NCBI RefSeq assembly: GCF_000421705.1
Contig: NZ_ATXN01000002.1
Location: 744,001 to 808,000 of the forward strand
DNA from: Brevundimonas naejangsanensis DSM 23858
GTDB lineage: Bacteria > Pseudomonadota > Alphaproteobacteria > Caulobacterales > Caulobacteraceae
DNA: 64,000 bases
Direction: 5' to 3'
Below the pieces are notes generated by a model. The model saw nothing but the letters and a program-made list of their open reading frames with translations, did not search any database and had not been told where the DNA came from. Within the stretch, counting starts at the first letter, position 1. Each line of letters opens with the position of its first letter. Position numbers and translations under genes: made by a program. Shown in pieces: positions 42,619 through 60,318 of this stretch.

Positions 42619-42708
42619 AACAACGATCCATCGGCTACTCATTCCCGAAAGGGTGAAGATCGGCCATGACCGCTCCAGACTGCGCGAGCCGTGACGAAGG
42701 ATGACCGC

Positions 42709-44040
42709 ATGATCGCTGCAAACGTCGGCAAAGCCGCCAACGACCTTGATCCTTTCTGGATGCCGTTCACGGCGAACCGCGCCTTCAAGGCACAGCCGCG
42801 CCTGTTCGCCTCGGCCAAGGACATGCATTACTTCACGCCGGACGGTCGTGCGGTGATGGATGGCGCCGCCGGCCTGTGGTGCGTCAACGCCGGCCACGCC
42901 CGCCGGCCGATCGTGGAGGCCATCCAGCGTCAGGCCGAGGTTCTCGACTACGCCCCGACCTTCCAGCTGGGCCATCCGCTGGCGTTCGAGCTGGCGTCGC
43001 GTCTGGGCATGCTGCTGCCGGGCGACCTGAACCACGTCTTCTTCGCCGGTTCGGGGTCCGAGGCGGTGGACAGCGCCCTGAAGATCGCCCTCGCCTATCA
43101 GAGCGCCAGAGGTTTTGAGAACCGCACCCGCCTGATCGGCCGCCAGAAGGGCTACCACGGCGTCGGCTTCGGCGGCATTTCCGTGGGTGGACTGGAGAAC
43201 AACAGGCGCGGCTTCCTCACCCTGCCCGGCGTCGACCATCTGCCGCACACGCTGAACCTGGACGAGGCCGCCTTCACGCGCGGCCAGCCGAGCTGGGGCC
43301 TGCACCTGGCCGATGAGCTGGAGGTTCTGATCGAGGGCCACGGCGCCGAGACCATCGCCGCCGTCATCGTCGAGCCCATGTCCGGCTCGGCCGGGGTCAT
43401 CGTGCCGCCGCTTGGCTATCTGGAGCGTCTGCGCGAGATCACGGCGCAGCACGGCATCCTGCTGATCTTTGACGAGGTCATCACCGGCTTCGGCCGTCTG
43501 GGCGCCCTGACGGCGGCCGAGGCTCTGGGCGTCACGCCCGACCTGATGACCTGCGCCAAGGGGCTGACCAACGGCGCCGTGCCGATGGGCGCTGTCGGCG
43601 TCAGCGCCGCCGTCTATCAGGCCGTGGTCGAGGGCGCGGCCGGGCCGGGCATCGAGTTCTTCCACGGCTACACCTATTCCGGCCACCCGCTGGCGGCGGC
43701 GGCCGGGCTGGCGACGCTGGACGTCTATGAGAACGAAGGCCTGTTCCAGCGCGCGGCCGAACTGACGCCCTACTGGCAGGACGCCGTGCACAGTCTGAAA
43801 GGGCTGCCGCATGTCATCGACATCCGCGACATGGGTCTGGTCGCGGGAATTGAGCTTGAACCCCGTCCCGGCGCGCCCGGCGCCCGCGCCACGGAAGCCT
43901 TCCACCGCGCCTTCGATGACGGAATTCTAGTAAGGGTTACAGCAGATGTCATCGCGCTGTCGCCTCCTTTGATTATCAGCCGCGACCAGATCGACGAGTT
44001 GATCGATCGCCTTTCCAGCATCATCAAAACCATAAGTTAG
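42709..44040 (+). CDS. Class III omega-aminotransferase (beta-alanine:pyruvate type)
   Basis: PLP enzyme moving an amino group from an omega- or beta-amino acid to pyruvate. The start at 42709 has AAGGA seven bases upstream and gives 443 residues. It has the class III layout: PFWMPFTANRAFKAQPRL, the DGAAGLWCVNAGH segment, FAGSGSEAVDSALKIA and K284 (TCAKGLTNG) for PLP. Specific similarity to beta-alanine:pyruvate aminotransferases is my reading. It is 27 bases before the TonB receptor gene. Confidence 0.88.
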   Translation: MIAANVGKAANDLDPFWMPFTANRAFKAQPRLFASAKDMHYFTPDGRAVMDGAAGLWCVNAGHARRPIVEAIQRQAEVLDYAPTFQLGHPLAFELASRLGMLLPGDLNHVFFAGSGSEAVDSALKIALAYQSARGFENRTRLIGRQKGYHGVGFGGISVGGLENNRRGFLTLPGVDHLPHTLNLDEAAFTRGQPSWGLHLADELEVLIEGHGAETIAAVIVEPMSGSAGVIVPPLGYLERLREITAQHGILLIFDEVITGFGRLGALTAAEALGVTPDLMTCAKGLTNGAVPMGAVGVSAAVYQAVVEGAAGPGIEFFHGYTYSGHPLAAAAGLATLDVYENEGLFQRAAELTPYWQDAVHSLKGLPHVIDIRDMGLVAGIELEPRPGAPGARATEAFHRAFDDGILVRVTADVIALSPPLIISRDQIDELIDRLSSIIKTIS

Positions 44041-44067: not shown

Positions 44068-46284
44068 ATGAACAAATATATCTTGGCATCTTCTGTCAGT
44101 TTACTGACAATAGCTGCTTTCTCCAACGCCAATGCTCAGAGCAACGCTCGCTCGGGAGAGCAGGCGACGCGCGTCGATGAGATCATCGTCACTGCCCAGC
44201 GCCGCGAACAGGCCAGCCAGGACGTCGGCGTGTCGCTCAGCGTCATCGGCGGCGAACAGCTCGATGAGAAGGGCATCTCGGTCGTCAACGATCTTGAGAA
44301 CGCCGTCCCCAACATGGAGGTCGACAGCCAGTTCGGCGGCGGTCAGCCCCAGTTCCGCATCCGCGGCATCGGCGCGCGCGAATACTCGTCGAACAACGCT
44401 TCGACCGTCGGCATCTATGTCGATGAAGTGGCCCACCCCTACACCGTGACCACGCAGGGCGCGATGTTCGACATCGCCCGTCTGGAAGTCCTGCGCGGAC
44501 CGCAGGGCACCCTGTACGGCCGCAACACCACCGGCGGCGCCGTCAATATCATCACCAACGCCCCGACCGCCGATTTCCAGGCCGGTTTCAACGCCGAATA
44601 CGGCACGTTCGACCGCTATAAGGTCGAGGGCTATGTCTCGGGCCAGATCGCCCCGACCCTGCTGGGCCGTCTGGCCGCCGTCACCGAGCAGGGCGGCGCC
44701 TGGCAATACCACCGCGACACCGGCGAGAAGCTGGGCGACCTGAACAAGACCGCCATTCGCGGCCGCCTGACCTGGGACGTCAGCGAGACCGTGACCGCCG
44801 ACCTCAGCGCCACCTATTCGATCGACAAGTCCGACGGGCGCGGCTTCCGCCTGCTCGGCCCCTACACCGTCGCCGACGGCAGCGTGACCTATCCCAAGGA
44901 CACGGCGTGGCGCATCACGGGCTGGGGGATTTCACCGCAACTGGCCGCCAAGGCCGGCGTCTCGACCAACGCCAAACCTTTCCGCGACAATGACGGGTTC
45001 GACATCAACGCCCGCATCCGCGCGGATCTCGGCTGGGCCGACCTGACATCGATCACCGCCTACCAGACCTTCTCGCGCAGCGAATTCAACGACTGGGACA
45101 GCACGCCCTTCCACGAATCGAACGTCCTCTTTTACAATGACATCGACGTCTTTGCTCAGGAACTGCGCCTGAGTTCGAACGGCGATGGCCCGTTCAACTG
45201 GATGGTCGGCGCCCACTATGCCGACGAGAGCATCGACGGCGGCTTCTACACCGAATTCCGGGGCAACCCGAACCTGATCGACACAGCCTATGATCAAAGC
45301 GTGTCGGCCTTCGGCATCTTCACCCACAACTCCTATCAGGTGAACGAACGGCTGAACCTGATCGCCGGCCTGCGCTGGGAAACGGAAGAGCGGACGCTCA
45401 AGAGCGGCGGCACCTATGTCGCGCCCAACCCGCCGCCGCCGCCCGTCACCTACGACACCGACCTCAATGAAGTCTCGGGCCGACTGGGGCTGGAGTATAA
45501 GGTCACGGACGACGCCCTGTTCTACGCCAGCGTGGCGCGCGGCGTGAAATCCGGCGGCTTCACCACCTACAACGCCACTTCGGCGACCCCGTTCAAGCCG
45601 GAAATCGTCATCGCCTATGAGGCGGGCCTGAAGTCCGACCTGTTCGATCGCCGCCTGCGGTTGAACGGCGCCCTGTTCTACTATGACTACAAGGACCAGC
45701 AGGTTCAGGGTCTGGAATACGATCGCGACACCGGTCGACTGGGCAAGATCACCAACGTGCCCAAGTCGCACATCATGGGCGGCGAGATCGAACTGACCTG
45801 GGTGCCGATGGACGGCCTGACCATCAGCCAGAACATCGGCTACAAGACCGGCGAGTATGATGAATACAACGCCATCGACGGGCCTGCGACCGACGCCGCC
45901 AACCCGGTCGACGGCCCCTGGGACAACATCATCACCAACGACCGCTCGGGCGAACGCCTAGCCTTCCCCAAGATGAACTACGGCGGCGCCATTTCCTATG
46001 ACTGGGAAATGTCGGGCTGGGAGCTTCGCGCTGAAACCAACTACAACTACCGCGACGAACTCTACTCACTGAGCTCCTCGTCGATCATCGAGCCCTTCTG
46101 GCTGTGGAACTCCAACTTCAGCGTTTCGCCAGCCGGGGCCAACTGGCGGGCGGGCCTGTGGGTGCGCAACATGTTCAACACCTACTACGAAGAGACCCGC
46201 AACGGCTTCAACAGCTCGTCGCGGCCGACCACCTCGCCCAGCCAGGGCCGCACCTATGGCGTGCGGCTGTCGATGGACTTCTAA
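44068..46284 (+). CDS. TonB-dependent outer-membrane receptor
   Basis: A 738-residue receptor: signal peptide (MNKYILASSVSLLTIAAF, to about NAQ24), a TonB-box-like VDEIIVTAQRR, a plug domain (about 45-160; LRGPQGTLYGRNTTGGAVNIIT) and a 22-strand barrel ending with an aromatic terminus (RLSMDF). Such receptors take up siderophores, sugars or peptides. It is cotranscribed with the aminotransferase and ends at a strong terminator, so a catabolic substrate is favoured over iron. Confidence 0.92.
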   Translation: MNKYILASSVSLLTIAAFSNANAQSNARSGEQATRVDEIIVTAQRREQASQDVGVSLSVIGGEQLDEKGISVVNDLENAVPNMEVDSQFGGGQPQFRIRGIGAREYSSNNASTVGIYVDEVAHPYTVTTQGAMFDIARLEVLRGPQGTLYGRNTTGGAVNIITNAPTADFQAGFNAEYGTFDRYKVEGYVSGQIAPTLLGRLAAVTEQGGAWQYHRDTGEKLGDLNKTAIRGRLTWDVSETVTADLSATYSIDKSDGRGFRLLGPYTVADGSVTYPKDTAWRITGWGISPQLAAKAGVSTNAKPFRDNDGFDINARIRADLGWADLTSITAYQTFSRSEFNDWDSTPFHESNVLFYNDIDVFAQELRLSSNGDGPFNWMVGAHYADESIDGGFYTEFRGNPNLIDTAYDQSVSAFGIFTHNSYQVNERLNLIAGLRWETEERTLKSGGTYVAPNPPPPPVTYDTDLNEVSGRLGLEYKVTDDALFYASVARGVKSGGFTTYNATSATPFKPEIVIAYEAGLKSDLFDRRLRLNGALFYYDYKDQQVQGLEYDRDTGRLGKITNVPKSHIMGGEIELTWVPMDGLTISQNIGYKTGEYDEYNAIDGPATDAANPVDGPWDNIITNDRSGERLAFPKMNYGGAISYDWEMSGWELRAETNYNYRDELYSLSSSSIIEPFWLWNSNFSVSPAGANWRAGLWVRNMFNTYYEETRNGFNSSSRPTTSPSQGRTYGVRLSMDF

Positions 46285-46297
46285 GGCTCCCTCCCAA

Positions 46298-46330
46298 GCA
46301 AGACGGGCCGGTTCCGCCGGCCCGCCTTGC
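46298..46330 (+). terminator. Terminator after the first TonB receptor
   Basis: A 14-bp stem with one mismatch (GCAAG-A-CGGGCCGG / CCGGCCCG-C-CTTGC), loop TTCCG, followed by GCCTTTTG. It starts 13 bases after the stop codon. Confidence 0.9.
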
Positions 46331-46346
46331 GCCTTTTGCTGATGGT

Positions 46347-47930
46347 ATGATGGCTTATTCCGCCCCCCGCCTTGATCGTCGCGCCCTGCTCACGGGTTTG
46401 GTCGTCGCGCCCGCCGTGCTGAGTTTCGGCCGGGCGCAGGCGGGCGGCGCCTATCTGTTTCCGCTGGGCGTCGCCAGCGGCGATCCAGCTCCGGACGGCT
46501 TCGTCATCTGGACCCGGCTTGCCGCCGATCCCCTCGCCGCCGATGGGCTGGGCGGCCTGTCCGCAAACATTCCGGTGCGCTGGGAAGTCGCTGCCGACGA
46601 CCAGTTCCGCCGCATCGCCGCCGCCGGGGATGTGACCGCCTCAAGCGACGCCGCCCACAGCGTCCATGTCGAGGTCGCCGGCCTCGCCCCCGGCCGCCCC
46701 TACTGGTATCGCTTCACCGCCGAGGGCCAGCAGAGTCCGACCGGCCGCGCCCTGACCACGCCCGCTCCGAACGCCGCCGCCGACCGCCTGCGTCTGGCCG
46801 TCGCCTCCTGCTCGCACTGGGAGCGCGGCTATTTCAGCGCCTATGGCCATATGGCCGACGAACAGCCTGACCTGACCCTGTTCCTGGGCGACTACATCTA
46901 TGAATACAGCCTGGGGCCGGATCGCGCCGATCAGGTGGTGCGTCCCTACAACCTCGAAGAAGCGACGACGCTGGCCGGCTATCGCAACCGCTACGCCCTG
47001 CATCGCACCGACGCGAACCTTCAGCGTCTGCACGCCGTCGCCCCGTGTGTCGCCATCTGGGACGACCATGAGGTTCAGGACGACTATTCCGGCGTCTGGT
47101 CCAAGGTTTCCGGCGTCGCGCCCAGCGATTTCCTGCAACGCCGCGCCGCCGCCTACCAGGCCTTCTACGAGGCCATGCCGATCCGTCGCACGCGCCTGAG
47201 CGCCGCCTTGCAGATGCCGATCTATCGTCGCGTCCGCTATGGCAGGCTGGCCGAGTTCTTCATGCTGGACGGGCGCCAATACCGCTCTAAACAACCGTGC
47301 AGCGACGGCGAGAACGGCGGCAAGGGCCAGATCGTCACCGACGCGACCTGCACCGACCGGCTGGATCCCTCGCGCACCTTCCTCGGCTTCGAGCAGGAGC
47401 GCTGGCTGTACGACGGCCTGGCCCGCGCAGACGCGCGCTGGAACATCCTCGGCCAGAATCTGGTGATGGCGGGCCTGCGTCTGGCCCGCAGCCCGGCCGA
47501 GGAAAACCGCTACTGGACCGACACCTGGGATGGTTTCCCCGCCGCACGCGACCGCCTGACCTCCGCCCTGTCCGAACTGAAGCCGTCCAATCCTGTGGTG
47601 CTCAGCGGCGACTACCACTCCTTCTGGACCAATGACGTCAAGCTGGACAGCCGCGACCCGTCCTCGGCCACCGTGGCGACCGAGTTCGTCGGCACCTCCA
47701 TCACCTCGACCGGCCCCAGCTACGACGGGCTGATGGCCGTCATGCCCAATAATCCGCAGGTGAAGTTCTTCGACAGCCGCCCGCGCGGCTATATGTCGAT
47801 CGACGTGCGCCCCGACCGCATGGATACGCGCTATCAGGTCATCAGCGACGTCCGCGATCCCAAGGCCAGCCTGTCGACCCTGAAATCCTGGACCGTTGAA
47901 TCGGGCCGCCCCGGCGCCGTCGCCGCATGA
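46347..47930 (+). CDS. PhoD-like alkaline phosphatase/phosphodiesterase
   Basis: A 527-residue exported metallophosphatase. The start at 46347 gives a Tat signal (RLDRRALLTGLVVAP); earlier in-frame sequence is antisense or out of family. The N-terminal fibronectin-like part (GYASGDPAPDGFVIWTRL type) is followed by the metal site: CSHW, FLGDYIYEY, WDDHEVQDDY and SGDYHSFW. PhoD enzymes use Fe and Ca and hydrolyse phosphodiesters and monoesters in the periplasm. It pairs with the acid phosphatase 23 bases downstream. No Pho box was identified. Confidence 0.9.
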   Translation: MMAYSAPRLDRRALLTGLVVAPAVLSFGRAQAGGAYLFPLGVASGDPAPDGFVIWTRLAADPLAADGLGGLSANIPVRWEVAADDQFRRIAAAGDVTASSDAAHSVHVEVAGLAPGRPYWYRFTAEGQQSPTGRALTTPAPNAAADRLRLAVASCSHWERGYFSAYGHMADEQPDLTLFLGDYIYEYSLGPDRADQVVRPYNLEEATTLAGYRNRYALHRTDANLQRLHAVAPCVAIWDDHEVQDDYSGVWSKVSGVAPSDFLQRRAAAYQAFYEAMPIRRTRLSAALQMPIYRRVRYGRLAEFFMLDGRQYRSKQPCSDGENGGKGQIVTDATCTDRLDPSRTFLGFEQERWLYDGLARADARWNILGQNLVMAGLRLARSPAEENRYWTDTWDGFPAARDRLTSALSELKPSNPVVLSGDYHSFWTNDVKLDSRDPSSATVATEFVGTSITSTGPSYDGLMAVMPNNPQVKFFDSRPRGYMSIDVRPDRMDTRYQVISDVRDPKASLSTLKSWTVESGRPGAVAA

Positions 47931-47953
47931 TCCTTTCCGACCGGAGTTCCCCC

Positions 47954-48796
47954 ATGACCCAGCCGCGCCTCGCTTCTTCACTCATCGCCATCGGGTTCGC
48001 CCTGGCCCTGGGCGGTTGCGCCGGCGCGGTTTCGACGCAGACGGCGGCGGTCGACGCGCCTGCGCCCGTGAGCTTCTGGGAAGGCTTTCGCGACCACCCG
48101 CACGGCTATCTGACAGCTGAGAACACGCCCAACGCCGCCAACTTCCTGCCGCCGCCGCCCGAGGAAGGCTCCCTGCGCGAACAGGCCGACATCGCCGCCT
48201 ATCGCGCCATGCGGTCGCTGGAAGGCTCCGAGCGCTGGGCCATCGCCCGCGCCGACAATGAGATCGAGACGCCCGGCGCCCCGCGCGCCTTCGACTGCGC
48301 CCTTGGCTTCAAGTTCGAGCCTGAACAGATGCCGACCCTGACCCTGCTGATGGGCAAGATGCTGGGCGATCTGGAGATGATCCAGACCCCGGCCAAGAAG
48401 GGCTATTTCCGCAAACGCCCCTTCGTGGTCGAGCCTTTGCCGACCTGTATCGCGCCCGAGACATGGCTGGCGGCCAGCGGCTCCTATCCGTCGGGCCACT
48501 CGGCGCTGGGCTGGGCCTGGTCGCTGGTGCTGGCCGAACTGGCGCCCGACCGCGCCGACGCCATCCTGCGACGTGGACTGGCCTATGGCGAAAGCCGCGC
48601 GGTGTGCGGCGTCCACTATGTCAGCGACGTCGAGGCGGGCCGCATCGTCGGCGCGACCATCGTCACGCGCCTGAAGGCCGATCCGGCGTTCCAGGCCGAC
48701 TTCGCCCGCGCCAGGCAAGAGTTCGAGGCCGCCCGCGCCGCCGCGACCGAAAGCACCGCTGCCTGCCCCGCCTCGCTGTCTCGCCAGCCCTGGTGA
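47954..48796 (+). CDS. PAP2 class A acid phosphatase
   Basis: A 280-residue periplasmic acid phosphatase (PhoN type). The signal ends in a lipobox-like LGGC. The three PAP2 motifs are present: KKGYFRKRP (K-x6-RP), SYPSGHSALG and SRAVCGVHYVSD (SR-x5-H-x3-D), so the active site is intact. Together with PhoD it would release phosphate from organic esters, possibly from imported phosphorylated substrates. Confidence 0.92.
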   Translation: MTQPRLASSLIAIGFALALGGCAGAVSTQTAAVDAPAPVSFWEGFRDHPHGYLTAENTPNAANFLPPPPEEGSLREQADIAAYRAMRSLEGSERWAIARADNEIETPGAPRAFDCALGFKFEPEQMPTLTLLMGKMLGDLEMIQTPAKKGYFRKRPFVVEPLPTCIAPETWLAASGSYPSGHSALGWAWSLVLAELAPDRADAILRRGLAYGESRAVCGVHYVSDVEAGRIVGATIVTRLKADPAFQADFARARQEFEAARAAATESTAACPASLSRQPW

Positions 48797-48883: not shown

Positions 48884-51505
48884 GTGACGAAGACAGGGGC
48901 GACACGCGTCGCGACAGCATCCCGACGGCGCAGCCGGAACGGCGGGCTTCGGTCCGGCCTGATGACGCTTATGTTGTCGCTGGCCCTGTGCCTCGTCTGG
49001 GGCCTGACGGCGCAACAGGTTCAGGCGCAAGCGCCGCGTGACCGTCTGGTGCTGGGCCTGCCGCTGGAGCCGCCGAACCTCGATCCGACCTCGGGCGCAG
49101 CGGCGGCGGTGGATGAAGTCGTCTACGCCAACCTCTTCGAAGGCCTGACCAAGCTGACCCAGAACGGCGCCGTCGCCCCGTCGTTGGCCGAGTCGTGGGA
49201 AGCCGCCCCCGACGGCCTCACCTGGACCTTCCACCTGCGGCGCGGCGTGATCTTCTCCGACGGCTCGCCGTTCGACGCCGCCGTCGCCAAATTCTCTCTC
49301 GACCGCATCACCGCCGAGGGCTCGACCAACGCCCAGAAGGCCCTGTTCGAGCCGATCCGCAATGTCGAGGTCGTCGACCCGACGACCCTGCGCATCCACC
49401 TGTCGCGGCCGATGGCGACCCTGCCCTACGTCCTGGCCTGGGGCGACGCCGTCATGGTCTCGCCCAGCAGCGTCGCGACCAACGCCGTCACCCCCGTCGG
49501 CACCGGCCCATTCAAGCTGCAGAGCTGGCAGCGCGGCAGTCAGCTGACCCTGATCCGCCGCGACGGCTACTGGGGGCCTGCGCCCCGCCTGAACACTGTC
49601 GTCTTCCGCTTCATCAGCGACCCGACCGCCGCCTTCGCCGCCGTAAGCGCCGGCGACGTGGACGCCTTCCCCAACTATCCCGCGCCCGAGAACGTGGCCC
49701 AGTTCCAGCGCGACCCGCGCTTCCGCGTCGTCGTCGGCGCCTCCGAAGGCAAGGTCATTCTGGGGATCAACAACACCAAGGCGCCGTTCAATGACGTGCG
49801 GGTGCGCCGCGCCCTGTCCTACGCCATCGACCGGGACGCCCTGATACAGGGCGCCATGTTCGGCTTCGGCCAGCCCATCGGCAGCCATTATTCGCGTCAG
49901 GCGCCGGGCTACGTCGACCTGACCGGCATCTATCCGCACGATCCCGCCAAGGCGCGCGCCCTGCTGGCCGAGGCGGGCTATCCCGACGGCATCGACGTGA
50001 CCCTGCGTCTGCCGCCGCGCCCCTACGCCCGGCGCAGCGGCGAGGTGCTGATCTCGCAACTGGCGCAGGCGGGCATCCGCGCCAGGATCGAAAACCTGGA
50101 GTGGGCCCAGTGGCTGGATCAGGTGTTCAAGCGCCGCCAGTTCGACCTGACCATCGTCGAGCACGTCGAGCCGATGGATTACGACATCTATGGCCGCAAG
50201 GACTACTATTTCGGCTACGACAGCCCCGCCTTCGACGCCCTGCTGGCTCAGGTCAACGCCGCCCCCGACGAGCCGACGCGCAACCGCCTGCTGGGCGATC
50301 TGCAACGCCGCATCGCCGATGACGCGGTGAACGGCTTCCTGTTCCAGTCCTCGCGCATCGGCGTGTGGAAAGCGGACGTGAACGGCCTGTGGATCAACGG
50401 CCCCATCGCCGCCAACGACGTCACCGGCGCCTACTGGACCGGCGCGGGCGCAGCGGGCGCATCGACTGCCGAGCGCACGGGCGGCGCCCTGCCCTGGGGC
50501 TGGATCAGCCTGATCGCAGGCGCGGCGCTCCTCGCCTTCGTCGCCTGGCGCTTCGGCGCGGTCTGGCTGCTGAAGAAGCTGGGCGGTCACGCGCTGACTC
50601 TGCTGGCGGCGACCGTGGTCATCTTCCTGCTGCTGCAGGTCGTGCCCGGCGACCCGGCCAGCTATATGATGGGGCTAAACGCCAGCCCGGAATCCATCGC
50701 CGCCCTGCGCCAGCAGATGGGCCTCGAAGGCTCAGGCCTTGAGCGCTATTTCGCCTGGCTCGGCGACCTGCTGACCGGAAAGTTCGGGACCAGCTACACC
50801 TATCAGGTGCCGGTCGGCGGCCTGATCGCGGAACGTCTGGCCGTGTCCGCGCCGCTGGCCCTGATGGCCACCGTCCTGTCGCTGCTGGTCGCCCTGCCCA
50901 TCGGCGTCACCGCCGCCAGCCGCAGGGGAACCGCCGTCGACACCGGCCTGATCGGCGTCACCCAGGTCGGCGTCGCCCTGCCCAACTTCTGGATCGCCAT
51001 GCTGCTGATCCTGCTGTTCTCGGTGAACCTGGGCTGGTTCTCGGCGGGCGGTTTCCCCGGTTGGAACAGCGGCTTCTGGCCCGCCTTCAAGGCCCTGATC
51101 CTGCCCGCCGTAGCGCTGGCCGCGCCGCAGGCCGCCATTCTGGCGCGCGTGCTGAGAACCGCCCTGCTCGACACCATGAACGAGGACTATGTCCGCACCG
51201 CCCGCGCCAAGGGGCTGTCGGTCAATCAGGCCCTGTGGCGACACGCGCTGCGCAACGCCTGGATCCCGGTCCTGACCATCCTTGGCCTGCAATTCCCCTT
51301 CCTGCTGGCGGGCGGCATCATCATCGAGAACGTCTTCTCCCTGCCCGGCTTGGGCCGACTGGTCTTCCAGGCCATCACCCAGCGCGACCTGATCGTGGTG
51401 CAGAGCGTGGTGGTGGTTCTGGTCTTCGCCGTGGTTCTGGTCAGCTTCCTGATCGACCTCGCCTATCTGTTCGCTGATCCGCGCCTGAGGGGACGCCGCG
51501 CATGA
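48884..51505 (+). CDS. ABC peptide transporter: substrate-binding protein fused to permease
   Basis: One 873-residue reading frame joins a family 5 periplasmic binding protein (about 50-525; ANLFEGLTKL, VAPSLAESWE) to a DppB-type permease (about 565-873; PGDPASYMMGL, EAA loop EDYVRTARAKGLSVNQALW near 765). An N-terminal signal helix (about 27-45) starts export. An extra hydrophobic segment at about 538-558 (WGWISLIAGAALLAFVAWRF) would bring the chain back to the cytoplasm before the first permease helix, so the topology works. It overlaps the second permease by four bases. Such transporters import di- or oligopeptides or nickel; the substrate is unknown. Confidence 0.85.
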   Translation: MTKTGATRVATASRRRSRNGGLRSGLMTLMLSLALCLVWGLTAQQVQAQAPRDRLVLGLPLEPPNLDPTSGAAAAVDEVVYANLFEGLTKLTQNGAVAPSLAESWEAAPDGLTWTFHLRRGVIFSDGSPFDAAVAKFSLDRITAEGSTNAQKALFEPIRNVEVVDPTTLRIHLSRPMATLPYVLAWGDAVMVSPSSVATNAVTPVGTGPFKLQSWQRGSQLTLIRRDGYWGPAPRLNTVVFRFISDPTAAFAAVSAGDVDAFPNYPAPENVAQFQRDPRFRVVVGASEGKVILGINNTKAPFNDVRVRRALSYAIDRDALIQGAMFGFGQPIGSHYSRQAPGYVDLTGIYPHDPAKARALLAEAGYPDGIDVTLRLPPRPYARRSGEVLISQLAQAGIRARIENLEWAQWLDQVFKRRQFDLTIVEHVEPMDYDIYGRKDYYFGYDSPAFDALLAQVNAAPDEPTRNRLLGDLQRRIADDAVNGFLFQSSRIGVWKADVNGLWINGPIAANDVTGAYWTGAGAAGASTAERTGGALPWGWISLIAGAALLAFVAWRFGAVWLLKKLGGHALTLLAATVVIFLLLQVVPGDPASYMMGLNASPESIAALRQQMGLEGSGLERYFAWLGDLLTGKFGTSYTYQVPVGGLIAERLAVSAPLALMATVLSLLVALPIGVTAASRRGTAVDTGLIGVTQVGVALPNFWIAMLLILLFSVNLGWFSAGGFPGWNSGFWPAFKALILPAVALAAPQAAILARVLRTALLDTMNEDYVRTARAKGLSVNQALWRHALRNAWIPVLTILGLQFPFLLAGGIIIENVFSLPGLGRLVFQAITQRDLIVVQSVVVVLVFAVVLVSFLIDLAYLFADPRLRGRRA

Positions 51506-52359
51506 CCGACGCCCCCGCCATCGCCGCCCCCGCCAAACCCCGCGTGCGCTGGCCTCTGTCGTTGATCGTCGGCGCAGGCCTGACCACCGTCGTGCTGGCG
51601 ACCGCCCTGCTGGCGTTGGCCTGGACGCCCTATGACGTGGAGGCGGTGGACATCGCCGCCAAGCTGACCGCCCCCTCCGCCGCCCACTGGATGGGCACGG
51701 ACCACTTCGGCCGCGATGTGCTGTCGATGATCATGGCGGGGGCGCAGAACTCCCTCGTCGTGGCCTTCATCGCCGTCGGCATCGGCGTCGGCATCGGCAC
51801 GCCTCTGGGCCTGACCGCGGCGGCGCGCGGCGGCTGGATCGACGAACTGGTCATGCGCGGCAACGACCTGATCTTCGCCTTCCCCGCCCTGCTGCTGGCC
51901 GTGATGATCACCGCCGTCATGGGGCCGGGCGCGATCAACGCCGTCATCGCCATCGGCGTCTTCAACATCCCCGTCTTCACCCGCGTCGCGCGTGGCGCGG
52001 CGCAGGGCCTGTGGACCCGCGAATACGTCCTGGCCGCCCGCACGGCGGGCAAGTCCAAGGCCCTGATCTCGCTCCAGCACATCCTGCCCAATCTGATGAG
52101 CCTGCTGGTCGTTCAGGCGGCGATCCAGTTCGCCGTCGGCATCGTGGCCGAGGCCGGCCTGTCCTACGTCGGTCTCGGCGCCCAGCCTCCCGCGCCCAGC
52201 TGGGGCCGGATGCTGGCCGAGGCCCAGACCATGATCGGCTTCGCGCCCTGGCTGGCCGTCATGCCGGGCCTGGCCATCTTCGTGACCGTGCTGGGCCTCA
52301 GCCTGACCGGCGACGGCCTGCGCGACCTGTTCGACCCGCGCGTGCGGCGGGAGCGTTGA
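51502..52359 (+). CDS. ABC peptide transporter permease (DppC type)
   Basis: A 285-residue inner-membrane permease pairing with the fused binding protein/permease. It has an N-terminal helix, the usual HWMGTDHFGRDVLSMI segment of the DppC/OppC type, and the EAA loop (YVLAARTAGKSKALISLQHILPN) that contacts the ATPase. Start overlaps the upstream gene (ATGA) and its stop is two bases from the ATPase start, so translation is coupled. Confidence 0.92.
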   Translation: MTDAPAIAAPAKPRVRWPLSLIVGAGLTTVVLATALLALAWTPYDVEAVDIAAKLTAPSAAHWMGTDHFGRDVLSMIMAGAQNSLVVAFIAVGIGVGIGTPLGLTAAARGGWIDELVMRGNDLIFAFPALLLAVMITAVMGPGAINAVIAIGVFNIPVFTRVARGAAQGLWTREYVLAARTAGKSKALISLQHILPNLMSLLVVQAAIQFAVGIVAEAGLSYVGLGAQPPAPSWGRMLAEAQTMIGFAPWLAVMPGLAIFVTVLGLSLTGDGLRDLFDPRVRRER

Positions 52360-52361
52360 CC

Positions 52362-53974
<1,613 letters not shown>

Positions 53975-53978
<4 letters not shown>

Positions 53979-55099
53979 ACCGCAGAACCGTCCTCGGCTC
54001 GGCCCTGATCGGCGCCGCAGCCTCCGCCGCCGGCGCCGCCGGCGCCAAACCGGCGGCCCAGTCCGCCGCCCGCGCGTCCGGCCGCACCGGCCCGCTGAAC
54101 CTGATCACCGACGTCGAGGGCCTCAAGGTCGGTCAGGCCCATGACGCGGGCGTCCGCACCGGCGTCACCGTCATCCTGGCCGAAAAGCCCGCCACGGCCG
54201 CCGTCGACGTGCGCGGCGGCGGCCCCGCCGGGCGCGAGACCGACGTGCTGCGTCCCGAAAATCTGGTGCAGGAGGTGGACGCCATCATCCTGTCGGGCGG
54301 CTCGGTCTATGGCCTCGGCTCGGCCGACAGCGTGGCGGCCTGGATGGGGATGCGCGGGCGCGGCTATGGCATGGGCGGGGCGCCGGGCGTGCCGCCCTCG
54401 CCCATCATTCCGACTGCCTGCCTTTATGATCTGGCCAATGGCGGGAACAAGCAGTGGGAAATGGAGCCGCCCTATCGCCGCCTGTCGGTTCAGGCGCTGG
54501 AGGCCGCGGGCGACCGCTTCGACCTCGGCACGGCGGGGGCGGGCTATGGCGCCGAAGCCGGCGCGCTGAAGGGGGGCATCGGCTCGGCCTCGGCCGTCAT
54601 GGCCTCGGGCTGGACGGTCGGCGCCATCGTGGCGGTCAACAGCGTCGGATCGGTCGTCGCGCCGGGCGGCAAGAGCTTCTGGGCCGCCCCCTATGAAATC
54701 GGCGACGAATTCGGCGGCCTCGGCTCGTCCGGCCTGCACGCCTCGGCCGAGGACTGGGGCCTGTCCAAGTTCCGCCCTCAACCGCGCGAGAACACCACCA
54801 TCGCCTGCATCGCCACCGACGTGGCCCTGACCCGCGTTGAGCTTCAGCGCGTGGCCATCATGGCGCAGGACGGCATGGCTCGCGCCATCCGCCCGGCCCA
54901 TGCGCCCTTCGACGGCGACACCCTGTTCAGCCTGTCGACCGGCAAGAAGATCATCGAGGACCCCGCCGCCCGCCAGGTCGCGGTGGCGCAACTGGGCAAC
55001 GTCGCCGCCGATGTGCTGGCCCGCGCCGTGGCGCGCGGCGTCTATCACGCCACCAACTATGACGGCGTCACCGGCAGGACCTGGCGCGAGATGGCCTGA
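53975..55099 (+). CDS. Exported P1/S58 Ntn hydrolase, DmpA/NylC-like
   Basis: A 374-residue self-processing amidase or aminopeptidase. The Tat-like signal is NRRTVLGSALIGAA (3-16). The fold markers are VDVRGGGPAGRETDVL, ILSGGSVYGLGSADSV and AGAGYGAEAGALKGG. The auto-cleavage site reads N273-T274 in ENTTIACIATD, the same pattern as N-TT in 6-aminohexanoate-oligomer hydrolase NylC, leaving Thr274 as the nucleophile; DmpA and BapA use a Ser. The end DGDTLFSLSTGK is also close to NylC. It is translationally coupled to the transporter ATPase, so it likely cuts what is imported. D-, beta- or omega-amide peptides are candidates. Confidence 0.87.
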
Positions 55100-55141: not shown

Positions 55142-56890
55142 TTAGCGGACGCCCAGCGCCAGGGCGTCCGGACGGCGGGTGTCGGCGGCGCCCAGGAAGC
55201 GGTCGCCGTCGACCAGAATCGACTGGGTGCTGCCCATCGTCATCGACGGACGCACCGTGTGGCCGCGCTCGCGCAACAGCCGCTCCACGTCGGGCGAGAA
55301 GCCGCCTTCCAGCTCCAGCGGGCTGTCGCCGCCGCCCTGATTCAGGCGCGGCCGCATGGCGGCCTCGGCCACGTTCAACTGGTGGTCGATGACGTTGGAG
55401 ACCAGTTGCACCATCGTAGCGATGATATAGCCGCCGCCCGGCGTGCCGGTGACCAGCCACGGCTTGTCGTCCTTGAACACGATCATCGGCGTGATGGTCG
55501 AGCCCAGACGCTTGCCCGGCGCGGGCGAGTTCGGCTGCCCCTGCGTGCCCCAGTAGAAGTTGTCCAGGTGGTTGTTCAGCAGGATGCCCGTGCCGACCGG
55601 CGCGACGTGGGCGCCGTAGGAATTCGACAACGTATAGGTGTTCGACACCGCATTGCCGTAGGCGTCGGCCACCGAATAGTGCGTCGTGTCCTTGCTCTCG
55701 AACGGATAGGGATTGCCTTCCGGCACGTCCTCGGCCTTCAGCGTCTTGTCCAGCGAGATCAGTTTGACGCGCTCGGCGGCGAATTCCTTGCTCGCCAGGC
55801 CCTTGGCCGGGGTCGTCCACTGCGGCGCCCCGCCGATCAGGTTGCGGTCGGACGAGGTGATCTTCATCGCCTCGGAGATCAGGTGCAGGCTGTCGACGCT
55901 GCCCCATCCCATCGCGCGCAGGTCGAAATGCTCCAGCAGGTTCAGCGCCTCGGCGACGCTGACGCCCGAGGCCGTCGGCGGCATGAAGGAGATGCGGTGG
56001 CCGCGATAGCTGCCCCAGATCGGCTCTGACACGTCGGCGCGATAGGCCGCCATGTCTTCCATCGTGATGACGCCGCCATGCGCCTGAATCCCGGCCACGA
56101 TCTGACGCGCCAGTTCGCCCTTGTAGAACTCGTCCGCGCCGCCGCGCGCCAGTTTGCGCAGGCTCTCGGCCAGCAGGGGCTGACGGAAGACCTCCCCCGC
56201 CCGATAGACTGAACCGTCGGCCTTCAGATAGGCCTCGCGCGCGCCCGGATCGGTCACCAGAACGCGAGCGCGGCCGCCCGTGGCGTCGGCCTCGCCGTCG
56301 GACAGGACATAGCCTTCCTCCGCCAGGGCTATGGCCGGAGCCACCAGATCCGCCCACGGCATGGAGCCGAAACGCTGGTGCGCTTCCCACAGTCCCATGA
56401 CGGTGCCCGGCACCGCCACATTGCGGAAGCCCGACGGCTTGGAGCGGTCGAACCGGCCGTCCGGTCCCAGCAGCAGGTCAGGCGTCGTCGCCGCCGGGGC
56501 CGTGCCGTAATAGTTGATGGCGATGTCCTGGGCCGGACGATCCTTCGTGGCCGCCATATGCACGACCATATAGCCTGAGCCACCGATGTTGCCTGCGCGC
56601 GGCAGGGTCACCGCCTCGGCGAAAGCCACGGCGATGGCCGAGTCCACGGCGTTGCCGCCCTGGCGCAGGATGTCGACGCCGACGCGGGTCGCCGGGTCGC
56701 TCTGGCTGACCACCATGCCGCCGCGTCCCACGACAGGGCTGTGAATCTGGCCGTAGTTGACGATGTCGCCGCCGCTGCCGGTGGTCGGCCGAACCTGGAC
56801 CGCCGCCTCCTGGGCCATCCCCGGCGCAGCCAGCAACATCAGGGCCGCCGCCGAAACAGCCGTCGCCGACTTCATCAAACCCAAACGCAT
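55142..56890 (-). CDS. ggt: Gamma-glutamyltransferase
   Basis: Periplasmic Ntn hydrolase that cleaves gamma-glutamyl bonds such as those of glutathione. The start at 56890 gives a signal peptide (MKSATAVSAAALMLLAAPG) and 582 residues. The self-cleavage site is D401-T402-T403-H-Y-S, with Thr402 as nucleophile, and the GTGILLNNHLDNF and GGGYIIATMVQ segments are present. Most family members have a different residue than Asp before the Thr. It is convergent with the NylC-like gene and divergent from the second TonB receptor. Confidence 0.9.
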   Translation of the reverse strand: MRLGLMKSATAVSAAALMLLAAPGMAQEAAVQVRPTTGSGGDIVNYGQIHSPVVGRGGMVVSQSDPATRVGVDILRQGGNAVDSAIAVAFAEAVTLPRAGNIGGSGYMVVHMAATKDRPAQDIAINYYGTAPAATTPDLLLGPDGRFDRSKPSGFRNVAVPGTVMGLWEAHQRFGSMPWADLVAPAIALAEEGYVLSDGEADATGGRARVLVTDPGAREAYLKADGSVYRAGEVFRQPLLAESLRKLARGGADEFYKGELARQIVAGIQAHGGVITMEDMAAYRADVSEPIWGSYRGHRISFMPPTASGVSVAEALNLLEHFDLRAMGWGSVDSLHLISEAMKITSSDRNLIGGAPQWTTPAKGLASKEFAAERVKLISLDKTLKAEDVPEGNPYPFESKDTTHYSVADAYGNAVSNTYTLSNSYGAHVAPVGTGILLNNHLDNFYWGTQGQPNSPAPGKRLGSTITPMIVFKDDKPWLVTGTPGGGYIIATMVQLVSNVIDHQLNVAEAAMRPRLNQGGGDSPLELEGGFSPDVERLLRERGHTVRPSMTMGSTQSILVDGDRFLGAADTRRPDALALGVR

Positions 56891-57261
56891 ACAGAAATCC
56901 CCGCCGCAAGCCCGTGCGTCGCGAAAGGCTGAAGCGCCCGCCACGCTTTCCCGCAGGACAATATTATCAAGAACCATAGCGATAGCATTGCTCAAAACAG
57001 TAGTTCAAGGACGAGCTTGAGTGATTATCGCGCTCATTATTTGGGATATCAGCAATATTTTTTCAGCTAAGGTTGACGCGCCGCAGTGTGGCCGCTTCAA
57101 GTCCGGACTGAGGCGAACTCTCCGCGCCGCGCCAGGTTTTTCGATTCGTCGGGGCGGCGCGCGCGGGAGTCGGCCTCATTCGACAAACAGATCAGTCAGC
57201 GATGCGACGCCTGCTTCAGACAGGAGCGCAGAACGATGACCACAACGGGGATGACTATTTC
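56891..57261 (+). other. Divergent promoter region of ggt and the second TonB receptor
   Basis: A 371-base gap. Near 57052 it has CAATATTTTTTCAGC, close to the CAATATTTTGAGC found upstream of the aldehyde dehydrogenase operon, and GCTCAA at 56990-56995. The rest has an AT-rich part about 57020-57075 and a GC-rich part without a gene I can support. It should hold promoters for both genes. Confidence 0.5.
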
Positions 57262-60200
57262 ATGAGCACTGTCTTGGCGCGCCGCACCATGCGAACGGCC
57301 CTGCTGGCCACCACGGCCTTGTTCGGCGCAACCGCCGCCTTCGCCCAGGAGGCGCAGGACGAGGTCACTCAGGTCGACGAGATCGTCGTCGTCGGCTCGC
57401 AGATCCGCGGCTCCAAAGTGACGGCCGCCCTGCCGGTGACCGTCGTCAGCGAAGACGACATCGTCGCCGCCGCTCCGGCATCGGGCGACGACCTGTTCCG
57501 CTCCATCCCGCAAATGGGCGATGTGACCTTCAACTCGTCCTACCTGCCCTACACCTCGAACGCGGCGCGCGGCGACACCGGCTCGGTGAACCTGCGCAGC
57601 CTGGGCATCGGCAACACCCTGGTGCTGCTGAACGGCCGTCGCGTCGTCGGCCACCCGACGTCACAGGCCAATGAGCATCTGGTGCCGGTCCTGACCTACA
57701 ACACCAACGCCATTCCGGTGTCGGGCCTGAAGCGCATGGAAGTCCTGCGCGACGGCGCCGCCGCCATCTACGGCGCCGACGCCGTGGCGGGCGTGGTCAA
57801 CACTGTCCTGCGCGACGACATGGACGGCCTGACCATCTCGACCCAGTACGGCGGCGCCGAAGGCACCGGCATGCGCGAGCTGAACCTGTCGATCTATGGC
57901 GGCAAGGACATTCAGGACGGTCGCGGCAACATCTCGGCCTTCTTCAACTACGACCACCGCGACGAGCTGAACACGCTCGATCAGGACTACACCGCCTCCA
58001 ACGACCTGACGTCGCTGTTCGCCGGCACGGGTTTTGAGAACAACAGCAGCCTGATCGGCACCTCGCCGCTGACGCCCTGGGGCCGCTTCACCGTCAACGG
58101 CTCCGGCGCGACGATCAACGGCAGGGCCTACAGCGCCTTCACCGTCCTGCCCGGAACGCACAACGACTGCGTCACCGCCATCGGCGACGGCCTGTGCGTC
58201 ATGAGCGGCGCCAACCTGCCGTCGGACCTTAACGCCGACATGGCCAAGCTGGGCCTGACGGTCATGCCCGAGGTTGACCGTTTCAACCTCTTCGTCACCG
58301 GCAAATACCAGATCAACGACGCCGTCGAGGCCTTCGGCGAGCTGGGCGGCTACTATGCCGAATCCCAAGCCTGGCAGGAGCCGATCGCAACGGCCTCGGC
58401 TGTGCCCTTCATCATCCCCGGCACGAACTACTACAACCCGCTGGACGGCAATCAGAACCTGACCCTGACCGGCTATCGGTTCATGGACATGGGCCCGATC
58501 AGCGTCAATGTGGTCAACAAGCAGTACCGCATCCTGGGCGGCCTGCGCGGCGACTGGAACGGCTGGAACTGGGAAACCGCCCTGACCTGGTCGGAAGCTT
58601 CGGCCAAGGACGTGTCGGACAACATTTCCGCCACCAAGCTGCAGGAGTGGGCCGCCAAGTCGACCCCGGACGCCTACAACTTCTTCAACGGCGGCTCGCT
58701 GACCAACCCCACGGTCGGTGACGACACCCTGTCGAACCAGGCGGCCCTGGACGGCATCCGCGTGGACATGGTCCGCAAGACCAAGACCGAACTGGGCATG
58801 TGGGACTTCCGCATCTCGCGTCCGGACGTCTATCAGCTGCCCGCCGGTCCCGTCGGCGTCGCCGCCGGCATCGAGCTGCGCACCGAGACCCAGCTGGACG
58901 ACCGCGACAGCCGCGTCGACGGCACGATCCGCTTCACCAACCTGCTGGGCGTCCAGTCTTCGGACCTGATCAACCAGTCGGAGAACCCGGACACCTACGG
59001 CGAACGCGACGTCTTCTCGGCCTATGTCGAGCTCGCCGCCCCGCTGATCTCGCCGGAAATGGGCGTGCCGCTGGTCCACAACCTGGAAGTCCAGCTCGCC
59101 GGTCGCTTCGAGGAGTATTCGGACTTCGGTTCGGTCGCCAAGCCCAAGTTCGCTGCGGCCTGGGACATCGTCGACGGCTTCCGTATCCGCGGCTCGTGGG
59201 CGCAAGGCTTCCGCGCTCCGAACCTGGAGCAGATGAACGCCACCGTCATCACCCGCTCGAACAACAGCAACGACTGGATTTATTGCGAGGCCCTGCGCGT
59301 TCAGGGCGGCCTCAAGACCGCCACGGGCGCGATCGACAACACCCTGCGCGGCTGCGGCGCCTCGATGAGCTCCAGGGTCGCGGACGAGTTCAAGGCGAAC
59401 TTCAGCCAGACCCACGCCCGCAAGTCGACGCAGGAGCGCCGCTCGGGCAACCCGGACTTGGCCCCGGAAGAGTCCGAAACCGTCTCGCTGGGCTTCGTCA
59501 TCCAGCCGCGCTTCATCCCGGCTGAGTTCGGCGACTTCACCTTCACCGCTGACTGGTGGCAGGTGAAGCAGGAAGGCATGGTTGGCCTGTTCCGCGGTCA
59601 GAACGCTCTGACGCTGGACTACCTGCTGCGCAAGCAGGGCTCGTTCAACGAGAACGTCGTCCGCGCCGATCCGACCGCCGCCGACATCGCCCTCTTCGCA
59701 GGCTCGGGCCTCGAGGCGGCGGGCGAAGTTCTCTACATCAAGGACGCCTATACCAACCAGCAGCCCCAGACGGTCGAGGGCCTGGACCTGGGCGTGATGT
59801 GGCGTCTGCGCGGCACCCAGTACGGCGACTTCAACGTCAACCTGAACGTCTCGCACCTGATCAAATACTATCTGGACATGGCGCCGGACACCAAGATGCT
59901 GGCCGACGCCCAGGCTTCGGGTCAGCTGGACGAGGCTATCTTCCTGTCGGGTTCGTTCGGCGACATGATCGCCGACTTCGGTCGCCCGGAATGGAAGTGG
60001 TCGCTGTCGGCGACGTGGCGCAAAGACGACTGGACGGTCGGCGCCTTCACCCAGTACATCTCGTCGCTGTATGACGACGGCCTGACCAACTCGGCGGGCG
60101 ATTACTGGACGGTGGACTCCACCATCACCGCTAACCTCTATGCGGAATACGCCTTCGACGGTTCGCGCTTCAGCGAGGCGCTGGCCGACTCGGCCGTTCG

Positions 60201-60318
60201 CGTCGGCGTGCGCAACATCACCGACGAACAGCCCCCGCTGGCCAGCGGCGGTTATGTCGGCACGGTGTACCAGCCCTACGGGCGCTACTGGTACGCCAGC
60301 TTCCGCAAGTCCTTCTGA
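57262..60318 (+). CDS. TonB-dependent outer-membrane receptor (second)
   Basis: A 1018-residue receptor. The start at 57262 (MSTVLARRTMRTALLATTALFG) gives a signal peptide ending AFAQ; upstream in-frame residues lack one. It has a VDEIVVVGSQIRG TonB box, a plug (about 45-170) with GNTLVLLNGRRVVG and LRDGAAAIYGADAVAGVVN, and a long barrel ending YASFRKSF. This long class is common in Caulobacterales and sphingomonads for peptides or glycans. It precedes an exported M20 hydrolase, with a terminator in between. Confidence 0.92.
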   Translation: MSTVLARRTMRTALLATTALFGATAAFAQEAQDEVTQVDEIVVVGSQIRGSKVTAALPVTVVSEDDIVAAAPASGDDLFRSIPQMGDVTFNSSYLPYTSNAARGDTGSVNLRSLGIGNTLVLLNGRRVVGHPTSQANEHLVPVLTYNTNAIPVSGLKRMEVLRDGAAAIYGADAVAGVVNTVLRDDMDGLTISTQYGGAEGTGMRELNLSIYGGKDIQDGRGNISAFFNYDHRDELNTLDQDYTASNDLTSLFAGTGFENNSSLIGTSPLTPWGRFTVNGSGATINGRAYSAFTVLPGTHNDCVTAIGDGLCVMSGANLPSDLNADMAKLGLTVMPEVDRFNLFVTGKYQINDAVEAFGELGGYYAESQAWQEPIATASAVPFIIPGTNYYNPLDGNQNLTLTGYRFMDMGPISVNVVNKQYRILGGLRGDWNGWNWETALTWSEASAKDVSDNISATKLQEWAAKSTPDAYNFFNGGSLTNPTVGDDTLSNQAALDGIRVDMVRKTKTELGMWDFRISRPDVYQLPAGPVGVAAGIELRTETQLDDRDSRVDGTIRFTNLLGVQSSDLINQSENPDTYGERDVFSAYVELAAPLISPEMGVPLVHNLEVQLAGRFEEYSDFGSVAKPKFAAAWDIVDGFRIRGSWAQGFRAPNLEQMNATVITRSNNSNDWIYCEALRVQGGLKTATGAIDNTLRGCGASMSSRVADEFKANFSQTHARKSTQERRSGNPDLAPEESETVSLGFVIQPRFIPAEFGDFTFTADWWQVKQEGMVGLFRGQNALTLDYLLRKQGSFNENVVRADPTAADIALFAGSGLEAAGEVLYIKDAYTNQQPQTVEGLDLGVMWRLRGTQYGDFNVNLNVSHLIKYYLDMAPDTKMLADAQASGQLDEAIFLSGSFGDMIADFGRPEWKWSLSATWRKDDWTVGAFTQYISSLYDDGLTNSAGDYWTVDSTITANLYAEYAFDGSRFSEALADSAVRVGVRNITDEQPPLASGGYVGTVYQPYGRYWYASFRKSF

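Follow-up and report, generated by a model that had tools for sequence, protein, structure and literature searches.

Why some ATP-binding cassette (ABC) importers carry their binding domains and others rely on a free pool of binding proteins is an open question. The glutathione importer GsiABCD has a separate binding protein. In excerpts of PMC12136057, the Dpp importer of E. coli is described as a heterodimeric translocator with six helices per permease subunit, which is inactive without DppA and ATP and in which a scoop of DppB enters the binding protein. A tethered arrangement is described for OpuA, in which a short linker and an anchoring helix of unconserved sequence join the binding domain to the permease, two binding domains are present per transporter and a local concentration of 4 mM is given for an 11-residue linker (excerpts of PMC11065425). 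GlnPQ carries tandem binding domains N-terminal to the permease in one chain, making four sites per transporter (excerpts of PMC8025302), and a binding domain is also fused to the permease in EgtUBC, which handles ergothioneine (excerpts of PMC9732360). According to the introduction of the latter paper, such fusions belong to Gram-positive bacteria, and the binding proteins of Gram-negative bacteria are typically soluble. The excerpts obtained from the open-licence literature searched did not describe any fusion of a family-5 binding protein to a DppB subunit. Here, a stretch of 64,000 nucleotides (i.e. the window; positions 744,001 to 808,000 of contig NZ_ATXN01000002.1) of Brevundimonas naejangsanensis DSM 23858 was analysed, in which one gene joins a family-5 substrate-binding protein (SBP) to a DppB-type permease. 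The encoded system is likely a heterodimeric Dpp/Opp/Gsi-type importer with one binding domain held covalently on DppB, whose substrates are probably amide-linked (perhaps beta- or omega-aminoacyl) compounds.

The fused gene lies on the plus strand at 48884–51505, in a single frame that is open through 873 codons from a GTG start and encodes 873 aa. The exact start codon is not settled between GTG at 48884 and a later start (e.g. ATG at 48962). An earlier note, made from the sequence alone, had proposed that this frame joins a full family 5 binding protein to a full DppB-type permease, and this was borne out by Pfam searches, fold matches and an AlphaFold2 model. Pfam placed SBP_bac_5 at residues 97–426 with 288.7 bits (gathering score 32.4) and both BPD_transp_1_N (residues 561–635) and BPD_transp_1 (residues 670–869) above their gathering scores, ruling out a chance open frame. 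The chain begins with a predicted signal peptide region (residues 1–49; 48884–49030), with AQA before about residue 50, whose beginning depends on the uncertain start codon. The substrate-binding domain spans residues 51–519 (49034–50440) and the DppB-type permease domain residues 560–873 (50561–51502), the latter recognized by Pfam, NCBIfam and phmmer alignments to E. coli DppB and OppB, with its first DppB helix at about residues 567–586. A coupling motif of the EAA type (RTARAKG, residues 771–777; 51194–51214) showed no variation among the 11 fused proteins of alignment A1; the coupling-helix name 'RTA' is taken from an excerpt of PMC12136057. The best NCBIfam models were Opp2B for the permease part (279 bits, cut-off 350), followed by NikB- and GsiC-type models, and GsiB for the binding part (186 bits, cut-off 594); the fused chain fell short of the cut-off of each of the 25 families listed, out of 29. 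Scans for promoters and terminators gave nothing that exceeded shuffled sequences.

The same architecture, which the earlier note had suggested seeking in other members of the order, was examined in several genome sets. An intact fusion without stops was present in 11 of 61 related genomes (56–96% identical when the window itself is set aside). Across the order, 398 genomes were sampled and 45 had a match at E <= 1e-120, of which 38 carried the whole fusion without stops and seven, all read at the DNA level, were split. The 38 fused genomes comprised 16 from the family of the window (f1) and 22 from a second family (f5), and included four single-contig genomes (i.e. G459, G616, G626 and G712). 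Matches were found in 79 of the 385 genomes of a class sample, with the window's own genome as the only fused case, and in 61 of the 398 genomes of a phylum sample, with two fused cases; the samples overlap in part. Split calls in the class and phylum samples rest on search tables, except for five doubtful rows that were read as DNA: four were split and the fifth had a binding gene ending at a stop and no permease in the fetched piece. A global scan of species genomes produced 384 relatives, from which the best 80 loci were kept. Fused loci numbered 51 (two cut at the 5' end) and split loci 29, a ratio that is not a frequency, since fused loci and in-frame split loci were preferentially retained. 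Fusions were found in records of Brevundimonas, Caulobacter, Phenylobacterium, Parvularculaceae, one Sphingomonas and several gammaproteobacterial metagenome bins, the nearest named record being Brevundimonas diminuta (96%). Fused and split forms coexist among the homologues, and the ordinary state of this transporter type is split. The expectation that the fusion would be unusual for Dpp/Opp systems fits the class and phylum samples (1/79 and 2/61 matching genomes). The two outcomes named in advance as refuting the fusion did not materialize: intact frames in 11/61, 38/45 and 51/80 members of three sets exclude both a frameshift and a missing stop, and homologues are not always split.

Some apparent cases were rejected. 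Three genomes (i.e. G775, G760 and G696) that seemed to have fusions with linkers of <10 residues contained stop codons in the DNA, the open-frame length in the search table being a sum of in-frame pieces across stops that mimics fusions. That all 29 split loci share one frame is most likely a ranking effect and was not taken as meaningful, because an alignment spanning an in-frame stop scores higher and only the best 80 of 384 loci were kept. One copy (L054), on a contig labelled as a Bordetella metagenome-assembled genome, was ~97% identical to the window fusion over the part present and probably derives from a misbinned Brevundimonas.

An AlphaFold2 model of the fusion, built from an alignment of 77 sequences taken from the window and the fetched loci, had a mean predicted local distance difference test (pLDDT) score of 87.4 and a predicted template modelling (pTM) score of 0.81. 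The binding part matched family-5 binding proteins in Foldseek and VIA-align comparisons; VIA-align aligned residues ~51–519 to whole proteins of this family, with Z scores of 43.2 for both 5u4o and YliB/GsiB (1uqw) and of 40.5 for a mutant E. coli DppA chain (8z1z_F); a Foldseek search of viral models gave no useful match. The two domains are separated by a flexible spacer of 18 residues (520–537; 50441–50494) and an added transmembrane anchor helix, TM0 (538–557; 50495–50554). Confidence was low across residues 521–540 (pLDDT blocks of 54 and 61) and ~90 across residues 541–560, and TM0 was followed by a helix at 559–586 that contains the first DppB helix. These results agree with an extra hydrophobic helix proposed in the earlier note for about residues 538–558. 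Reading of the 29 split loci showed that the binding protein stops at query position ~519, where the spacer starts, and that DppB starts near 560, so the fused proteins carry ~40 extra residues. Spacer and helix were absent from all 29, and, as the helix is present in the model, it belongs to the fusion. At the N-terminus, the model contained a helix at residues 23–42 within a low-confidence stretch, and a loose AxA export pattern preceded the mature part in 46 of the 49 fused loci with a complete N-terminus.

The inserted residues were compared across 52 fused frames, in which the linker measured 39–60 residues, mostly ~42. This insert is the least conserved part of the fusion: in 40 aligned fused proteins, mean identity to the window was 27% for the spacer (519–537) and 32% for the helix, as compared to 63–65% for the binding domain and 71% for the permease core. 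All 52 linkers nevertheless contained a hydrophobic 19-mer (Kyte-Doolittle 1.49–2.90), which lacked charged residues in 42 cases, and 1311 of 52000 linker shuffles reached the observed hydrophobicity. An insert that is variable yet always hydrophobic would be the pattern left by selection on topology alone, as expected of a tether, and the linkers may provide natural cases of a membrane helix kept for topology alone. The AlphaFold2 output is silent on the sidedness of the added helix, which would instead follow from parity: if the binding domain is to lie outside and DppB is to start inside, the chain must cross the membrane an odd number of times, and it has a single hydrophobic helix at this place.

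Downstream of the fusion lies a conserved cassette on the same strand. A separate gene for a DppC-type second permease subunit (51502–52359; BPD_transp_1, best NCBIfam model Opp2C below the equivalog cut-off) overlaps the fused gene's stop by 4 bases and precedes a gene for a fused double ATPase of DppD-DppF or GsiA-like type (52362–53978), with two ABC_tran stretches and oligo_HPY in one chain. The last cassette gene (53975–55099) encodes a peptidase family S58 enzyme, assigned by Pfam, with a leader resembling those of twin-arginine translocation (Tat) substrates; its nearest relatives among solved structures are ThnT and then nylon hydrolases. DppC and DppDF followed the fusion in 10 of 10 related loci. 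In one of these, a short contig breaks off within DppDF; S58 was present in the other nine. Upstream are an omega-aminotransferase of class III (AptA, 42691–44040, plus strand; NF052567 at 695 bits, cut-off 500), whose closest PDB relative is beta-alanine-pyruvate transaminase, and a TonB-dependent receptor (44068–46284, plus strand; Pfam). After the cassette, a gamma-glutamyltransferase (55142–56995, minus strand; Pfam) and a second TonB-dependent receptor (57202–60318, plus strand) were found. A tblastn search of the flanks (0 to ~10 kb) around each of the 80 global loci detected no further family-5 SBP.

Neighbourhoods were counted where a global locus had no less than 6 kb of upstream and 5 kb of downstream sequence, which applied to 51 of the 80 (31 fused and 20 split; the other 29 were left out), with gene models seeded from the window and counts confounded by relatedness. 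An S58 gene was near 27/31 fused and 7/20 split loci, a TonB-dependent receptor near 23/31 and 1/20, a class-III aminotransferase near 11/31 and 0/20, and a gamma-glutamyltransferase near 7/31 (all Brevundimonas) and 0/20, respectively. The aminotransferase beside the Sphingomonas fusion was also AptA (713 bits), and two further fusions (L063 and L120) had an amidase nearby.

From these features, we infer how the importer would be assembled, oriented, docked and used. The signal peptide would take the binding domain into the periplasm. The 18-residue spacer that follows residue 519 would lead to helix 538–557, which would make a single membrane crossing, and DppB would thereby start in the cytoplasm as in ordinary transporters. 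DppB would pair with DppC, which has its own gene, and the resulting three-chain importer would be powered by the double ATPase DppDF. Each translocator should hold one binding domain because DppC is a separate, different subunit. On its spacer, the tethered domain could sample a half-sphere of ~9 nm, equivalent to a local concentration of ~1.2 mM when 0.35 nm per residue and a domain radius of 2.5 nm are assumed; such a high local concentration would favour docking, and tethering would make the scoop-docking step independent of a free binding-protein pool. Imported amide-linked peptides, perhaps with beta- or omega-amino acids, would be cleaved by S58 and the products transaminated where the aminotransferase is present.

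Several observations weigh against this interpretation. Positive residues on the C-terminal side of the added helix are few, with a mean of 1.04 lysine or arginine residues after the helix within the linker against 1.63 before it, and 6 of 52 linkers have none after the helix, although the lysine and arginine residues at the start of DppB itself fall outside this count. A possible start codon occurs near the old DppB start in 29 of 52 fused frames (ATG in seven). The proposed substrate is a guess, S58 genes being near 27/31 fused but only 7/20 split loci. The arginine that binds the peptide carboxylate in DppA (R383) is matched by R379 of the window, according to a phmmer alignment, but two fused proteins of alignment A1, the most distant ones, do not retain this residue.

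Other accounts of the fused frame were weighed against a stable tether. A sequencing or assembly artefact, or a pseudogene, has a negligible probability: a misread stop codon is conceivable, but the same intact frame recurs in independent genomes (11/61 relatives and 38/45 matching order genomes, four of them single-contig), which rules out a sequencing error, and both the domains and the downstream genes are conserved. Alternatively, one polypeptide could be made and then cut in the spacer after insertion, releasing a free binding protein, so that fusion would only equalize amounts. The spacer is flexible in the model (pLDDT 54–61 at 521–540) and little conserved (27% mean identity to the window), so a protease could reach it, and in split relatives the two parts do occur as separate proteins; however, no conserved cleavage motif was seen by eye in the linkers compared, and the helix would be purposeless after cutting, yet a hydrophobic segment is retained in 52/52 linkers. 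This makes cutting improbable. Still less probable is the production of two proteins from one frame, i.e. the full fusion and a shorter, internally started DppB, such that tethered and untethered transporters coexist. The ATG, GTG or TTG codons near the old DppB start in 29 fused frames would permit this, but the window and 22 other frames (23/52 overall) have none there, ATG is present in only seven, and there would be no need for the added helix. Production of a separate DppB from this frame is thus not a conserved feature, although some of the other genomes might make one.

For the tethered importer, the substrate was considered separately. Amide-linked compounds that release beta- or omega-amino acids are a tentative candidate; amide or omega-amino substrates are suggested because AptA, S58 and amidases occur near fusions, and no link between such an importer and beta-peptide enzymes was found in the literature searched. 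The ligand may not be a plain dipeptide, since the arginine at R379 is not kept in distant fused proteins. A possible alternative, though less likely than not, is an importer for ordinary dipeptides or for glutathione, i.e. a Gsi-like system in which S58, the gamma-glutamyltransferase and the TonB receptors are mere neighbours. It would accommodate the NCBIfam scores for GsiC (222 bits), GsiB (186 bits) and GsiA (521 bits), the gamma-glutamyltransferase after the cassette and the match of R379 to DppA R383. All three scores are, however, below their cut-offs, as were those of every listed family for the fused chain, and a gamma-glutamyltransferase accompanies only 7/31 fused loci as compared to 27/31 for S58. 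In addition, the ER pair of the DppB scoop is replaced by L-N in the window, and the fused proteins most distant from it do not retain the DppA arginine.

Other features of the neighbouring genes differed between loci. Of the 52 loci with an S58 match, 18, all of Brevundimonas type (among L044–L062, L073 and L123), had a Tat-like MNRR leader on the enzyme; no such leader was seen on S58 of the remaining fused and split systems. The enzyme therefore seems to have moved to the periplasm in Brevundimonas-type loci, judging from its leader, and may act before import in these loci and after import elsewhere. Genes for a PhoD-type phosphatase and a PAP2 (PhoC-like) protein occupy 46104–48796, between receptor and fusion; in L047, L050, L052 and L057, the aminotransferase directly adjoins the fusion, and the phosphatase pair seems to come and go. 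Among plasmid-borne split relatives, one (L153, Ruegeria) adjoins panB-panC, another (L154, Agrobacterium) lies ~4 kb from panB-panC, and a third has a P1-family peptidase downstream; panB-panC would consume free beta-alanine. A split relative in Desulfobacula (L081) is located two genes downstream of a LarA-type 2-hydroxyacid racemase, LarAH10 (L081:5143-6438), with an S58 gene between, and has two separate ATPase genes (L081:10894-12836), unlike the fusion at 52362–53978 of the window.

In Robiginitomaculum-type split loci (i.e. L102, L110 and L162–L165), the two genes lie in one frame, separated by one stop and a short gap, and the binding protein has a lipoprotein-like leader. Several split relatives of the same order are lipoprotein-like, but most scanned split loci are not. 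A loose lipobox was detected in 3/49 fused and 7/28 split loci, in a scan that left out three loci with a cut N-terminus, and replacement of a lipid anchor by the fusion was rejected as a general rule.

The history of the fusion was examined with a quick tree of 87 rows, built with the linker left out, with support from the Shimodaira-Hasegawa-like approximate likelihood ratio test (SH-aLRT) only and without L124, L127, L128 and L129, whose matches were on the minus strand of the fetched piece. Fused rows formed a clade of 37 (Caulobacteraceae and others, SH-aLRT 98), a second clade of 14 (Parvularculaceae and a Woeseiaceae bin, SH-aLRT 99) and one lone row. The fused/split label changed three times on the tree, or twice without the distant outgroup. 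Forcing all fused rows together cost 0.25 log units with an approximately unbiased test P-value (p-AU) of 0.50; this test compared 41 fused and 27 split rows, having dropped 19 of the 87 (near-copies, the outgroup and two long branches). A single origin of the fusion is possible. The outgroup (L031) is too distant for rooting (branch 10), and the tree does not give the direction, i.e. gain versus loss. The association of the TonB-dependent receptor with the fusion is inseparable from ancestry, as the label changes only two or three times and the receptor models are window-seeded. An ambitious and unlikely scenario is that one ancient stop loss, together with a new helix from former intergenic DNA, founded a Gram-negative lineage of strictly one-domain importers preferentially coupled to TonB-dependent receptors, which would form a dedicated uptake line from outer to inner membrane that no longer needs a pool of free capture proteins.

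Compared with described systems, the locus has the features of a type I importer of the peptide-nickel class (i.e. Dpp/Opp/Gsi/Nik), namely a family-5 SBP, a DppB/DppC pair and two DppD/DppF-type ATPases. Like E. coli DppABCDF, it has DppB and DppC homologues and a family-5 binding protein; unlike this system, in which DppA is separate and DppD and DppF are separate, both pairs are joined here, and the scoop residues E41-R42 of E. coli DppB correspond to L-N. GsiABCD shares the fused double ATPase (GsiA) and the GsiB- and GsiC-like parts, and GsiB is among the best fold matches (Z 43.2), but its binding protein is separate and the equivalog scores were far from reached (GsiB 186 versus 594 bits; GsiC 222 versus 463 bits). 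Further comparators are the unfused orthologues, for example in Robiginitomaculum, Granulosicoccus, Mesorhizobium, Hoeflea and SAR324 bins, which over the 29 split loci are 52–57% identical in the SBP and 55–70% in DppB and have DppC next where the contig reaches; their genes are separate and without spacer or added helix, and at least one (L081) has two separate ATPase genes as well.

With OpuA and GlnPQ, the locus shares an SBP and permease in one chain across species, together with a linker and a predicted membrane anchor. OpuA of Lactococcus lactis, a type I importer with an OpuABC chain, resembles the fusion in its covalent tether of linker and anchor helix, but is a homodimer with two binding domains, whereas in the DppB/DppC pair only DppB carries one; it also differs in substrate class and binding-protein family, and the host here is Gram-negative. 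GlnPQ likewise has binding domains N-terminal to the permease in one chain, but two per chain, in an amino-acid importer of Gram-positive bacteria. A homodimeric permease with two or four binding domains is not expected here, as a separate, different DppC gene follows the fusion. Since OpuA and GlnPQ hold two or four domains, the effect of tethering is mixed with that of domain number, whereas the heterodimer described here should have exactly one domain and its unfused orthologues allow a direct comparison. Fused and split relatives would represent a natural before-and-after pair, in which the linker could be cut or added to show what tethering alone does to affinity, rate and dependence on binding-protein supply. 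The principle of tethering is known from OpuA and GlnPQ, and what is new is that a peptide-type importer of Gram-negative bacteria, with a heterodimeric translocator and with unfused orthologues, makes use of it.

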